Source: Sphingobacteriales bacterium
Lineage (GTDB): Bacteria; Bacteroidota; Bacteroidia; UKL13-3
NCBI GenBank assembly: GCA_021298155.1
Contig: JAJTEN010000017.1
Coordinates: forward strand, 1 to 54,615
Reading direction: 5' to 3'
DNA: 54,615 nucleotides
The position numbers and the translations under genes were made by a program. The notes under the pieces were generated by a model that was not told where the DNA came from, searched no databases, and was given only the letters and a program-made list of their open reading frames with translations. The number at the start of each line of letters is the position of its first letter. The stretch's first letter is position 1. Positions 42,441 to 52,289 of this stretch are shown one piece after another.

Positions 42441-43958
42441 TTATTGTTTTAAAAATTCATACTTTTCATAATCAATAAAATCTGCTACTTTAACATGTAT
42501 AGATTTTACACTATTGTTACTAATGGTAAAAGGTAAAACCGCTACTCCGCAGGTAACATCGCTATAGGTACACAGAAAATTATTATTACCAATATGTTGC
42601 AAGGTTCCAATATTAGTTGGATGATTACTTAAGTACATTTTTAAAATCCCTTTCTCTAATTTTATTTGCATATTGCCATATAAACTATTGATATAGTTTC
42701 CTGTAAATTCAATGAGAGGGATATCAGTTTTAATTTTCTTTTTGGATAAACTCTCCAGACTATCTAATTCTTTTAAGTTTGCCATTTTACTTGGTAAACT
42801 TGCGTTAAAATATAATTCACTTACATTCCTATATGCCACATTTAAATAGGCCTCAATAATCTGTTTAACAAGTGCATCGTACAATGAATTTGCATCTGTA
42901 TTGGTATAAACTAAAACGCCTAAATTTGCTTCTGGAATAAATTCTGTTTTGGTAACAAAACCGTTTGCGCCTCCGCTGTGCTCCCAAATGCGTTTTCCAT
43001 GGTAATCATAACTAGACCATCCAAGTCCGTATGTTACAAAATGTTTGCTAGGGAATAACTTAGAACCAGCATCATTAACAATCATATTCGATTTTCTAGT
43101 TTCTTTTAAAACTGAGAAAGGAACCACCTCTTTGCCGTTAAATCTTCCACTATCTAATTGCATAAGTAGCCAATTCGCCATATCTGCAGCACAAGAATTA
43201 ATGCTGGCAGAGGGTCCCATATTATCAATATTTGTTAAAGGCAATCGCACTAGGTTTTGTTTAACTAAAGTATGAGGGGTACAGGCATTTTTATCGGTGG
43301 CCATTGCCCGGTGCGTTGTGCTAGTTCTTTGCATTTGCAGTGGGTTAAAATAGGATTCTGTGATAAAATCATCCCAACTTTTACCTGTAACTATTGGTAT
43401 TAATTCTCCAGCTGTGATATAGGCGGCGTTGCAATAACCATAATTGTACCTGAATTTATTTTTTGGTTTGGTTCGGGCCATACCTGAAATAATTTCTTGC
43501 CGACTTAATGTACTTCCCCAGTTTAAAAAATCTCCTTGAAAGGTTCCCAAACCAATGCGGTGACACAGTAAATCTCTAACAGTAGTTAATTGCCCACTCA
43601 GACTATCGTACAGCGTAAACTGTGGCATGTACTTTTTTACGCTTTCATCTAAGTTTATTTTTTTTTGCTGATGCAAGTGAGCCATCGCAGTGCCTGTAAA
43701 AGCTTTGCTGTTGGATGCAATTTGAAATAAAGTATAGGCATCAACAGGCTCTTTACTGACTATATCTTTTACCCCAAATCCTTTGGCAAGAACAACTTTA
43801 CCGTCTTTCACTATAGCTACTGGCAAGCCTGGCACCTGCCATCTTTGCATTTCACGCTGAATATAACTATTTAATGAATCTGTTACAAAAGTAGGTTGTG
43901 CGTAGCTAGAGGTTGAAAAGATGAAATATACTAAAAAATAGCGTAATTTATTTCTCAT
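42441..43958 (-). CDS. Serine hydrolase of the class C beta-lactamase family
   Basis: Exported enzyme with signal peptide ending Ser-Tyr-Ala-Gln. The SxxK motif is Ser82-Lys85 in ASNSKAFTG; the YxN motif is Tyr175-Asn177 in NYGYCNAAY; HSGGANGF takes the KTG position. These define a penicillin-binding/class C fold, used by D-aminopeptidases, esterases and peptidoglycan-active enzymes as well as beta-lactamases. The C-terminal 110 residues resemble DUF3471. The length (505) and this extra domain argue against a resistance enzyme. The substrate is unknown. Confidence 0.88.
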   Translation of the reverse strand: MRNKLRYFLVYFIFSTSSYAQPTFVTDSLNSYIQREMQRWQVPGLPVAIVKDGKVVLAKGFGVKDIVSKEPVDAYTLFQIASNSKAFTGTAMAHLHQQKKINLDESVKKYMPQFTLYDSLSGQLTTVRDLLCHRIGLGTFQGDFLNWGSTLSRQEIISGMARTKPKNKFRYNYGYCNAAYITAGELIPIVTGKSWDDFITESYFNPLQMQRTSTTHRAMATDKNACTPHTLVKQNLVRLPLTNIDNMGPSASINSCAADMANWLLMQLDSGRFNGKEVVPFSVLKETRKSNMIVNDAGSKLFPSKHFVTYGLGWSSYDYHGKRIWEHSGGANGFVTKTEFIPEANLGVLVYTNTDANSLYDALVKQIIEAYLNVAYRNVSELYFNASLPSKMANLKELDSLESLSKKKIKTDIPLIEFTGNYINSLYGNMQIKLEKGILKMYLSNHPTNIGTLQHIGNNNFLCTYSDVTCGVAVLPFTISNNSVKSIHVKVADFIDYEKYEFLKQ

Positions 43959-49279: not shown

Positions 49280-50041
49280 TTAATTAGGATCATGGGCTTC
49301 TCGCATCATAGTTTCAGATAATTCTTTTCCGAGGTAATTGTCGATAATGCGGTGTATGAAATAAAGCAATGGTGTAAGCGCAAGTGCTACAGTAAGTTTG
49401 TAGATATAATTTACTAATCCAATACCTAATACCAATTTAATATCCCATCCAGCGCCAATATAAAAAGCAATAAACAAAACAACAAAGCTATCTATAAGTT
49501 GAGAAACCAAAGTTGAGCCAGTTGCTCTGAGCCAAAGTTTCTTTTCTCCAGTTTTCTTTTTTAGGTAGTGAAATACAACTACATCTGTAACCTGACCAAT
49601 TAAGAATGCAACTAAGGAGCCAATAATTATCCATAAGCCTTGACCAAATATTTGCTCAAAAGCCACTTGCATATTTAGATTTCCAAAATCAGTTTCTCTA
49701 TTTATCCAAAAATCTGCAGGTGGTAGTTTAATACCAACATAAATGATTAAGAATGCGTAACTAATCAAAATGGCTGCCAAATAGGATAATAATTTTACGC
49801 CACGTTTTCCATAATATTCATTGATGATATCCGTCATAATAAACACAAGCGGCCATAATATTACCCCAACGGTCATATTAAAAGACAATGAATAGCCTAA
49901 AATATTCCAGTTAGCCTTATTCATTCCTAAACTAGATTCTAGGGAAAATATTTTTACACCAATAAATTCAGCTAGAATGGCATTGGCAATAAAAAAACTT
50001 CCTAAAATAATGAACAATAGACTTCGCTTATTTTCTTTCAT
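49280..50041 (-). CDS. Queuosine precursor transporter (YhhQ/VUT family)
   Basis: Inner-membrane uptake protein for 7-cyano-7-deazaguanine or related queuine precursors. Six or so hydrophobic helices fill residues 8-240; DIINEYYGKRGVKLL is the family's charged loop after the second helix, and FLIGQVTDVVVFHYLKKKTG and RATGSTLVSQLIDSFVVLF follow. I prefer the ATG at 50041, giving 253 residues beginning MKENKRSLLFIILGSFF; the ATG at 50083 would add 14 residues. It is divergent from the copper locus. Confidence 0.88.
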   Translation of the reverse strand: MKENKRSLLFIILGSFFIANAILAEFIGVKIFSLESSLGMNKANWNILGYSLSFNMTVGVILWPLVFIMTDIINEYYGKRGVKLLSYLAAILISYAFLIIYVGIKLPPADFWINRETDFGNLNMQVAFEQIFGQGLWIIIGSLVAFLIGQVTDVVVFHYLKKKTGEKKLWLRATGSTLVSQLIDSFVVLFIAFYIGAGWDIKLVLGIGLVNYIYKLTVALALTPLLYFIHRIIDNYLGKELSETMMREAHDPN

Positions 50042-50133
50042 ATCAATTATAAAAAATCTATTGCAAATAAGTTTTTTCTGCATACATTTTTGTAAAAAGA
50101 ATAAAACTTCAGTTTCTAGCTTGTTTAAATTTG

Positions 50134-50141
50134 TATATTTG
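50134..50141 (+). promoter_or_regulatory. TAnnTTTG -7 element of the copper locus, candidate leaderless start
   Basis: TATATTTG is an exact match ending four bases before the ATG at 50146. A near-consensus TTTC lies 17 bases upstream. As with 33276 and 3543, transcription would start at the initiation codon. Confidence 0.5.
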
Positions 50142-50145
50142 TACT

Positions 50146-50400
50146 ATGGAATCTAGTCAAACGCAATTACAAGAATTATATGTAGAAGGAATGTCTTGCG
50201 CGAATTGTGCAATGGGTGTAAAAAAACGTTTGGAAAAACAAGGAATGCAGGCTGTTGACGTAAACTTTGCTTCTGGAGAGGTTCGATTTGATAACGTTAT
50301 TGCAAAGCCACTTGCTGAAATTTCTGAGAGCATAGAAGACTTAGGTTACACCGTTCGCATTCCAAATTCAGGTGTGAATGATCAAAAAAAAAACGCTTAG
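50146..50400 (+). CDS. Copper-binding HMA domain (CopZ-like); 0-frame product of the copA locus
   Basis: 84 residues. The metal site is GMSCANCAMGVKKRL with Cys18 and Cys21, and the rest is a complete HMA fold ending GYTVRI. Read in frame it stops at TAG 50398-50400, yielding a stand-alone copper chaperone. A TTG at 50131 would add five residues but sits inside the promoter; ATG 50146 is preferred. Its 3' end holds ten A residues (50384-50393) with the slippery heptamer A_AAA_AAC; a -1 shift there joins it to the ATPase frame. It is therefore both a possible independent CopZ and the N-terminal domain of CopA. Confidence 0.85.
   Translation: MESSQTQLQELYVEGMSCANCAMGVKKRLEKQGMQAVDVNFASGEVRFDNVIAKPLAEISESIEDLGYTVRIPNSGVNDQKKNA
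50384..50394 (+). promoter_or_regulatory. Slippery site for -1 frameshift (or transcriptional slippage)
   Basis: Ten A residues followed by C. In the HMA frame the codons read CAA AAA AAA AAC, so A_AAA_AAC at 50388-50394 has exactly the phase of a classical -1 slippery heptamer. Small hairpins follow: GCTT/AAGC (50395-50405) and GAGT/ACTC (50409-50420), which may stimulate slippage but are weak. Confidence 0.55.
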
Positions 50401-52289
50401 CAAGCCTTGAGTCAAAACTCCTATTTAGTTTAATTTTTACTGTTCCATTAAGCCTGCACATGTTTTTGTCGTGGGAACCTCTGCACAATCCTTTTATTCA
50501 ATTTGGTTTATCTGTTCCTGTATATGGTTTGGGACTATGGTTTTTTGGGAAATCAGCTTTCAATAGCTTAAAATCTGGTGTGCCCAATATGGATGTGCTT
50601 ATATTTATTGGTGCAAGTTCTGCCTTATTTTATAGTATTTTTGGTGCTTTCTACTATTATGGCTCTCACGAAGTTCATAATTATTTGTTTTTTGAAACTG
50701 GGGCGAGCATCATTTCTCTTGTTTTATTTGGTAATGTAATAGAAAAACGTTCAGTAAAAAAAACAACAAATGCCATTCAGAGTTTGTCTAATCTACAGGT
50801 ACAGAAAGCACAATTAATTTCAACTGAAAACGGTCTAATCAGCTATCAAGAAATTGAAGTTAAGTTATTAAAAAAGGGCGATTTATTGCAGGTTAATGCA
50901 GGTGATATTGTGCCCATTGATGCAATAGTTATAAGTGGGGAAGCCGATTGTGATGAGCGTTTAATGACGGGGGAAAGTATACCAGTATTTAAGCAAAAAG
51001 GAGCAAATGTAACGGGTGGAACAATTCTCATCAATGGAAATTTGCAAGTTGAGGTAATAACTGAATTAAAGAATTCCGTCTTATCTCAAATAATAGAAAT
51101 GGTAAAAAAAGCCCAAACCAACAAGCCAGCTATCCAAAAGTTGGGCGATCAAGTCAGTAGCATCTTTGTGCCTGCTGTGATATTGATTGCGCTTTTTACA
51201 TTTCTATTCTCATTTTTTTATTTAGAAATTGGTTCGGCACAAAGTATGCTCAGGGCTGTTGCCGTATTGGTTATTTCATGTCCTTGTGCTATGGGTTTGG
51301 CCACTCCAACGGCCATTATGGTTGGTATTGGTAAGGCTGCCAAACGTGGCATTTTAATTAAAGGTGGACATGTTTTAGAGGATTTTGCAAAAAGCAAAAA
51401 AATAGTATTTGATAAAACGGGTACTTTAAGCACAGGAGATTTTGTTTTCACTCAATTTTGGTCTGAACCAAATACAGAATCAGAAGCTAAAAATATGATT
51501 TATGCATTAGAAAAGAGATCATCTCATCCAATTGCTAAAGCATTGATCAAAAAACATTCTGATTGGTATTCAGCAGAAATAATTTTTGAAAAGGTTGAAG
51601 AAGTTAAAGGTTTTGGTATGCATGCCCGAGATCATTCAGGAAATGAGTGGAAATTTGGTTCTGCAGAATGGCTTCAGGATAAAGATCATCCATCAGATTT
51701 AGTATTGAGTAAAAACGGGGATATAATAGCTGGCATTTCTCTGAATGATGAACTCAAAAAAGGGGCAAGCGATTTAATTGCCTATTTAAAAGATCAGCAG
51801 GTCTCAAATGTAATTTTAAGTGGCGATAGTTTAAAAAAAGTTACTCAATTAGCAAATGAATTGCATATTGAAGAATATTATGCACAACAATCGCCAACAG
51901 ATAAATTGGTTAAGATCACAGAATGGCAAAAAAATGAACGTATAATTATGGTTGGAGATGGCGTAAATGATGCACCTGCATTGAGCAAAGTATCGGTGGG
52001 TATTTCTTTTGCAAGGGGCAGTGATATTGCGATTCAGTCGGCTAATTTGGTAATTATGCGTAATGATATGAAAAGCATACAGGATGCTTTTATCATTAGT
52101 AAACAAACATACAAAACCATTAAACAAAATTTGTTTTGGGCTTTCTTTTATAATATACTCTGTATACCATTAGCTGCCGCGGGATATATGCACCCTATGC
52201 TTGGGGCATTGTCTATGGCGTTTAGTGATATTATAGTTATTGGAAATTCTTTGTGGCTTGGGGTTAAAAAGATTAAAAGACCATTTTAA
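50394..52289 (+). CDS. copA: Copper-translocating P-type ATPase (CopA), -1 frame segment
   Basis: P1B-type ATPase exporting Cu(I). Seen: TGES-type motif MTGESIPVF, the membrane metal site CPCAMGLATPTA, phosphorylation motif DKTGTLSTG, SSHPIAKAL, and MVGDGVNDAPALSKV with the membrane tail. The first in-frame ATG is at 50460, but that would drop the first membrane helix. Reading back to 50394 gives RLASLESKLLFSLIFTVPLS, the missing linker and helix of CopA, joining the upstream HMA domain without a gap. Full product by -1 shift: 714 residues from ATG 50146, normal for the family. A homopolymer error or mutation would give the same picture. Confidence 0.88.
   Translation, partial: RLASLESKLLFSLIFTVPLSLHMFLSWEPLHNPFIQFGLSVPVYGLGLWFFGKSAFNSLKSGVPNMDVLIFIGASSALFYSIFGAFYYYGSHEVHNYLFFETGASIISLVLFGNVIEKRSVKKTTNAIQSLSNLQVQKAQLISTENGLISYQEIEVKLLKKGDLLQVNAGDIVPIDAIVISGEADCDERLMTGESIPVFKQKGANVTGGTILINGNLQVEVITELKNSVLSQIIEMVKKAQTNKPAIQKLGDQVSSIFVPAVILIALFTFLFSFFYLEIGSAQSMLRAVAVLVISCPCAMGLATPTAIMVGIGKAAKRGILIKGGHVLEDFAKSKKIVFDKTGTLSTGDFVFTQFWSEPNTESEAKNMIYALEKRSSHPIAKALIKKHSDWYSAEIIFEKVEEVKGFGMHARDHSGNEWKFGSAEWLQDKDHPSDLVLSKNGDIIAGISLNDELKKGASDLIAYLKDQQVSNVILSGDSLKKVTQLANELHIEEYYAQQSPTDKLVKITEWQKNERIIMVGDGVNDAPALSKVSVGISFARGSDIAIQSANLVIMRNDMKSIQDAFIISKQTYKTIKQNLFWAFFYNILCIPLAAAGYMHPMLGALSMAFSDIIVIGNSLWLGVKKIKRPF

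Follow-up and report, generated by a model that had tools for sequence, protein, structure and literature searches.

A conserved copA gene split at a run of ten adenines in Bacteroidia, with a probable copper chaperone and copper pump as its two products

Introduction

Dual-product copA was previously known from Escherichia coli, where it arises by ribosomal frameshifting at the slip site CCCAAAG. The two E. coli products are a short protein of 70 aa and the full pump of 834 aa (PMC5009743), and the shift that yields the short one, CopZ, involves a slippery sequence, a pseudoknot and the nascent chain (PMC7558416). CopZ proteins deliver Cu(I) both to CopA and to regulators (PMC9470648), and separate copZ genes encode an HMA chaperone with a CxxC motif (PMC9470648, PMC10187127).

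Frame changes on long A runs have been described for other bacterial genes. For two-ORF dnaX with ten A's, transcriptional realignment has been proposed (Antonov et al. 2013, PMC3711429), and slippage on the A9 run of Thermus dnaX reaches about 50% (PMC1088944). The long form of tssM1 of Citrobacter rodentium (A11) comes from messages with an added A, through transcriptional slippage at about 20-25%; both tssM forms are needed, and the tssM genes of C. rodentium and Yersinia pseudotuberculosis have opposite polarities (PMC4256274). The main text of PMC3711429, supplements apart, contains no mention of copper, P-type or ATPase, and PMC10885494 does not mention copA, copper or dnaX. Among the literature matches listed, judged by titles and abstracts and with subscription papers mostly outside their scope, no paper deals with a poly-A copA. 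Here we describe a copA that is split at an A10 run; the split is real and conserved, and the gene is very probably programmed to give two products.

Results and discussion

The copA frame is split at ten adenines

The window, by which we mean the whole 54,615-nucleotide stretch of DNA analyzed (GC 34%), belongs to a 2.5-Mb draft genome in 71 contigs. The features around copA are as follows.

49280-50083, minus strand: divergent queuosine-precursor transporter gene, preceding the copA ATG at 50146
50146..50400, plus strand: HMA-domain frame (0 frame), ATG at 50146, 84 codons, TAG at 50398-50400, read directly
50384..50393, plus strand: A10 run, the proposed slip site, exactly ten A followed by CGCTTAG, read directly
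50398..50400, plus strand: 0-frame stop TAG, one codon past the codon that ends the A10 run
50382..52289, plus strand: -1 frame, open for 635 codons, with the linker, TM1 and the rest of a P1B copper-transporting ATPase
50460..50462, plus strand: first ATG/GTG/TTG of the ATPase frame, an ATG for a conserved Met inside the first membrane segment

The 0-frame codons at the junction are CAA AAA AAA AAC GCT TAG. Direct reading bears out what the preliminary description had reported, an HMA frame closed by TAG 50398-50400 with the ATPase in the -1 frame. It had also pointed to A_AAA_AAC as a classical slippery heptamer; this motif does lie in 0-frame phase, but it is not distinctive, because the run equally offers A_AAA_AAA. 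The ATPase frame appears to be reachable from the HMA frame solely via slippage. A restart at 50460, where the Met sits within the first membrane segment, would lose most of the TM1 helix. By arithmetic, a slip would fuse 82 HMA-frame codons with 632 ATPase-frame codons into a protein of about 714 aa, compared with open frames of mostly about 690-770 aa in unsplit relatives.

Both parts can be assigned. The HMA frame scores 42.4 bits against the Pfam HMA cut-off of 24.8; at 84 aa and with the motif GMSCANC, it fits the GMxCxxC pattern by which small HMA proteins are taken as CopZ-type chaperones. Its best NCBIfam matches are CopZ models, all under cut-off (43.5 against 91, 36.8 against 85 and 36 against 95 bits), and its relatives by sequence among solved structures are CopA domains and CopZ. 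We predict that the product is an 84-aa CopZ-like copper chaperone and that, in the full pump, the same segment would serve as N-terminal metal-binding domain. Copper P1B ATPases are marked by CPC in TM6, DKTG and GDGxNDAP, and the translated ATPase frame contains SCPCAMG, DKTGT and GDGVNDAPA. This frame passes the copper-translocating P-type ATPase model TIGR01511 (490.9 bits, cut-off 397) and scores 539.6 bits with TIGR01525 (cut-off 346.25); it is below the cut-off of the E. coli CopA equivalog NF007952 (368.4 versus 1316 bits).

Among the HMA matches of this draft genome (E <= 0.001), we found no second cytosolic GMxCxxC protein; of the two others, one is a P-type ATPase of 824 aa and the other a frame of 132 aa that begins like a signal sequence and carries the motif NCTQC. 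Two unsplit relatives, G026 and G037, each have a single HMA protein besides their ATPases. In contrast to systems with a separate copZ gene, which was not found in this draft, the chaperone here would be the front of copA. Most likely, the split gene would supply CopZ and tie the amount of chaperone to that of the pump via the slip rate.

Seven HMA proteins of about 100 aa were read in relatives, and none of the seven is a split copA. Six (L241-L246, from six relatives, with KCxGC or SCSGC motifs) lie among frames that we named by eye as rhodanese- or thioredoxin-like, and these HMA-like proteins look unrelated to copper export.

The split recurs in 23 genomes and three families

The split was found in 23 genomes in total, always in the -1 direction. 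Within the genus, the junction could be read in 17 genomes, the source genome included, and all 17 are split; one of them, L011, is truncated by the start of its contig and lacks the HMA domain, but it retains the run and stop. The genus members lacking a readable junction are G017, whose contig holds only the C-terminal part, and G018, which has no match at E <= 1e-100. Beyond the genus, the split occurs in two genomes of genus g8 (L024, L061), in the named MAG locus L076 and in two other families, represented by one genome of f38 (G139) and two of f60 (G324, G445), which brings the families of the class that have it to three. The preliminary description concerned a single gene; the result is wider, with copA split in three families and a like run in the genome's own dnaX.

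These counts come from searches of different reach. In the first, which covered 98 genomes, the source genome included, the pump frames of the genus are 635-659 aa long, versus about 700-760 aa for the best matches of most other genomes. Within f38, another three genomes are unsplit by length, their open frames being 712-721 aa, and one of them (G095) also by direct reading; in f60 and its neighbors, this pump was found in two of 57 genomes (E <= 1e-120), both split. A class-wide draw of 395 genomes gave 148 matches at E <= 1e-120, of which seven are split by open-frame length: five of the genus, plus G139 and G324. The remaining matches have frames of at least 686 aa or are cut by contig ends, and two short ones, G158 (687 aa, L178) and G150 (698 aa, L177), proved unsplit when read. 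A phylum-wide draw, in which 19 of 395 genomes match at E <= 1e-130, yielded no further split copA.

Quick trees of the ATPase part place the split genes of f60 and f38 apart from those of f1, within which the unsplit genera g7 and g9 are nested among split ones. One tree, under LG+G4, has 83 rows, 21 of them split, and drew a long-branch warning for L175; the other, under a mixture model, has 57 rows, none of them long and 22 of them split. Rows without the search motif were dropped from these trees and L061 was left out. They need five changes between split and unsplit, at least four of them forced by starred branches. Because unsplit g7 and g9 lie among split genera, the trees fit gains and losses alike, and the arrangement, either losable or repeatedly gained, is not indispensable.

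The run, its position and the stop are kept

The run is A10 in 21 of the 23 split genes, A11 in one and A9 in one, and it is followed by C (13), T (8) or G (2). Its first A is at codon position 2 in every gene except G324, where it is at position 1, and an Asn codon (AAC or AAT) closes it in 20. The 0-frame stop (TAG in 18, TAA in four, TGA in one) stands one codon past the run in 22 genes and eight codons past it in L014. As the species are related, these counts carry no p-value. The ATPase of L013 is still at -1 with an A11 run, so the out-of-frame state is kept despite the changed length. When the run is shortened by one A, reading stops within 14 codons too, so every wrong run length gives an HMA-only product. 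In 16 of the 17 genus genes the stop falls within a Leu codon (xTA) of the -1 frame, and TTA and CTA together are 45% of the Leu codons in the split-gene ATPases. Lys codons wholly inside the run are AAA; downstream, AAG accounts for 210 of 817 Lys codons.

A long run goes with the split. We scored the junction, from -90 to +75 of the ATPase match, in 80 named GTDB loci (L066-L145), of which 11 are split and 69 unsplit (L110, with the motif ERMTC, is counted as unsplit, its frame being open through the HMA domain). The longest A run is 10-11 in all 11 split loci and at most A8 in all 69 unsplit ones; the named loci are not independent of the 23 genes, ten of the 11 split ones being already counted there and only L076 adding to them. 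Among the 69 unsplit genes, seven have an A8 and ten an A7 near the HMA-ATPase linker, which are possible starting points for a slip run.

Both frames evolve as protein. In the genus, the HMA segment varies at its own three codon positions by 0.22/0.13/0.51 (16 rows; L011 has no HMA), and the segment between the run and the TM1 Met, taken in the -1 frame, by 0.36/0.17/0.58 (16 rows of equal length); each is most variable at the third position of its own frame. In all 17 genus genes, the ATPase frame has no ATG, GTG or TTG more than six codons ahead of the TM1 Met. This third-position pattern, together with the missing early start codon, suggests that the stretch after the run is selected as protein without a start of its own; it resembles the linker and TM1 of unsplit pumps. 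Judged by their evolution, both frames are probably translated.

Long A runs elsewhere, and dnaX

The source genome has six A10/T10 runs on both strands, versus 53-236 runs of at least ten in sequences simulated from Markov models of the 54.6-kb window. Such depletion of long A runs need not be general: congeners have 6-62 A10 matches, counted as overlapping 10-mers. Only two of the six lie on the coding strand of genes, in copA and in dnaX, the latter being the only other A10 clearly within a gene. Two of the others, L172 and L174, follow hairpins and are terminator-like, L172 also touching the stop codon of a convergent frame; L173 is intergenic, and L170 precedes a likely ATG, although a frame with a possible GTG start contains it. 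An A9 run on the coding strand (43658-43666) sits inside an intact serine-hydrolase-like gene (42441-43958, minus strand), so nine A's are tolerated in this genome.

The gene dnaX (L169:370-2097 in the source genome) is a classic recoding gene, and its run is at the gamma/tau boundary. We read 30 dnaX loci (L210-L239) out of 57 genomes with a match, and all 30 have a run there: A10 in 25, A11 in four and A12 in one. Two polarities occur. In 22 loci tau continues in the 0 frame, and reading at -1 ends within two codons of the Lys codons, whereas in eight (g2, g5, g6, g7, g10) the 0 frame ends shortly after the run, with tau at -1. The source genome has the former, that is, not the two-ORF polarity, which is found in five other genera of the family. 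The runs lie in all three codon phases, 1 and 3 being common and 2 occurring in one locus. The copA arrangement is the design of two-ORF A10 dnaX in another gene: it shares with the dnaX described in PMC3711429 the A10 run, the -1 arrangement and the need of a shift for the longer product.

Error, switching or a second start

Three other accounts of the split have to be weighed. A sequencing or assembly error, or a recently broken gene, would be a natural suspicion in a draft of 71 contigs, given that homopolymers are error-prone and that the named relatives with the split are MAGs. These MAGs come from several projects, and an eleventh A missed in assembly, the error considered in the preliminary description, would need to have happened again and again, each time in one direction; nor is the source genome alone in being split, as had also been considered, since its nearest relatives are split too. 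The same frame break is found in 23 genomes with a purifying pattern in both frames, and the dnaX run was assembled in frame in the same 17 genus genomes (A10 in 15, A11 in two). With the split so conserved, we rejected error and pseudogene as extremely improbable. Almost as improbable is a pair of separate starts, with CopZ made from ATG 50146 and an HMA-less pump from 50460 by coupling. The ATPase frame does have its ATG there, but this Met is inside the first membrane segment with no start more than six codons earlier in 17 of 17 genes, and the stretch ahead of it evolves as -1-frame protein and resembles the linker and TM1 of unsplit pumps; on this start-codon and codon-position evidence, reinitiation at 50460 was rejected.

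Phase variation, in which the run would change length at replication and leave the pump on (whole) or off (split) within a population, is very unlikely as well. In its favor, a homopolymer of ten in coding DNA is a usual contingency site; slipped-strand mispairing is discussed in PMC3711429. A switch should leave a mixture of in-frame and out-of-frame genes, but all 23 copA genes with a junction run of at least nine are out of frame and in one direction, that of L013 with A11 among them, and none of the 69 unsplit named genes has such a run; phase variation was rejected on this ground. The proposal first made for this locus, that one gene gives a CopZ-like protein and the pump with a polarity opposite to that of E. 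coli, is probably right in view of the conservation in 23 genomes: comparing homologous loci, one of the checks it had named, finds both the split and the A run kept in all 23.

Polymerase or ribosome

The best reading of the comparative evidence is programmed slippage, by RNA polymerase more likely than by ribosomes. RNA polymerase would re-align part of the time on the A10 run, giving messages with ten A's or other numbers. Unslipped messages (ten A's) and those of wrong length would stop soon after the run and yield a small soluble HMA protein, which may accumulate and, like CopZ, carry Cu(I) as a chaperone. If a message gained one A or lost two, the HMA and ATPase frames would be fused into the whole CopA pump of ~714 aa. 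A single promoter would thereby serve both products, in a chaperone-to-pump ratio set by the slip rate.

The same two products would result if ribosomes made a programmed -1 shift at an A_AAA_AAA or A_AAA_AAY of the run, and several features suit this: the heptamer has the right phase, 22 of 23 genes keep that phase, and the Asn codon closing the run (20 of 23) and the stop one codon later (22 of 23) are kept. The stimulators expected of such a site were not found. Searches that modeled secondary structure without pseudoknots gave mean RNAfold z values downstream of -0.39 (70 bases) and -0.57 (100 bases), with one of 23 genes below -2 in each, and an RNAalifold consensus with no pairs on 12 sequences downstream of the run. 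Synonymous sites show no added constraint, the first 15-codon windows after the run having 0.83-1.01 of the gene-mean synonymous identity, and a Shine-Dalgarno-like motif is not general, occurring within 20 bases upstream in three of 23 genes. The run is the sole stretch that we found strictly kept. An A10 is retained where A7 would suffice for ribosomes, and although AAG is a usable Lys codon, the length of the run is conserved. A_AAA_AAG is an efficient slip site in E. coli (PMC4066793), and the G that it needs follows the run in just two of the 23 genes. The dnaX runs of the same family, moreover, lie in all three phases. Slippage on the A runs of tssM1 and Thermus dnaX offers a precedent, and the depletion of long A runs in the source genome also counts in favor of programmed slippage.

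Some observations pull the other way. The single codon phase in 22 of 23 copA genes, including members of both other families, and the C or T after the run in 21 weigh against RNA polymerase, to which a constant phase should not matter; descent and protein constraint can explain this constancy. Ribosomes, for their part, could also slip on A10 in any phase. The 6-62 A10 matches of congeners, and the place of unsplit g7 and g9 among split genera, likewise count against the reading. Taking both sides together, we regard ribosomal shifting as rather unlikely and consider it likely, from the comparison of genes, that copA is a programmed slippage gene on which RNA polymerase slips to give chaperone and pump. 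The preliminary description had allowed frameshifting or polymerase slippage; the polymerase half is now the probable one, and the classical heptamer with a ribosomal shift the less likely.

Comparison with known systems and implications

The locus shares with E. coli copA and its CopA(Z) product a single copper-pump gene, a short HMA chaperone beside the full pump, and a frame change after the HMA domain. The polarity is reversed: a shift produces the short protein in E. coli, whereas here it would produce the long one, the short one being that of the 0 frame. The slip site also differs, being an A10 run for which folding without pseudoknots found no structure, in contrast to the E. coli type with its downstream stimulator; CCCAAAG is absent from this copA, none of its seven matches in the window falling in the gene. 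The slippage of tssM concerns a secretion gene and is reported to be uncommon among tssM genes (PMC4256274), whereas the copA run is kept through the genus and in other families.

We are inclined to go one step further, with less assurance than for copA itself, and to suggest that RNA polymerase slippage on A10 is a reusable dosage device of the Bacteroidia that, beside its place in dnaX, has been recruited into copA more than once, there to set the ratio of chaperone to pump with a polarity inverted from that of E. coli. If so, pump output would be controlled at the level of transcription fidelity, and E. coli and Bacteroidota would have arrived at dual-product copA convergently, using different machines. 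A dual-product copA in another phylum, with a different site, opposite polarity, no stimulators found and a presence in three families, allows testing whether it is the ratio of chaperone to pump, and not any one mechanism, that selection maintains. For genome annotation, the consequence is that automatic pipelines may label split pumps as broken or HMA-less, and that a 'missing' CopZ can hide in front of copA.

Neighborhood of the split genes

Queuosine modifies tRNA-Asn, the reader of the AAC or AAT codon that ends the run, and the queuosine-precursor transporter gene upstream of copA was considered as a general cause of the split. This idea was dropped, as the neighbor is found at none of the six split loci outside the genus (within 588-2987 upstream bases); it is also at none of ten unsplit loci checked. 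In the genus, the transporter adjoins copA at 15 of the 16 loci with upstream sequence, in the other orientation in L014, and is absent from L018.

Within 50133-50146 there is a TATATTTG box whose end is a few bases ahead of the copA ATG, and L006-L009 have similar boxes in that position. It resembles the -7 promoter box of Bacteroidota. The copA message may be nearly leaderless.
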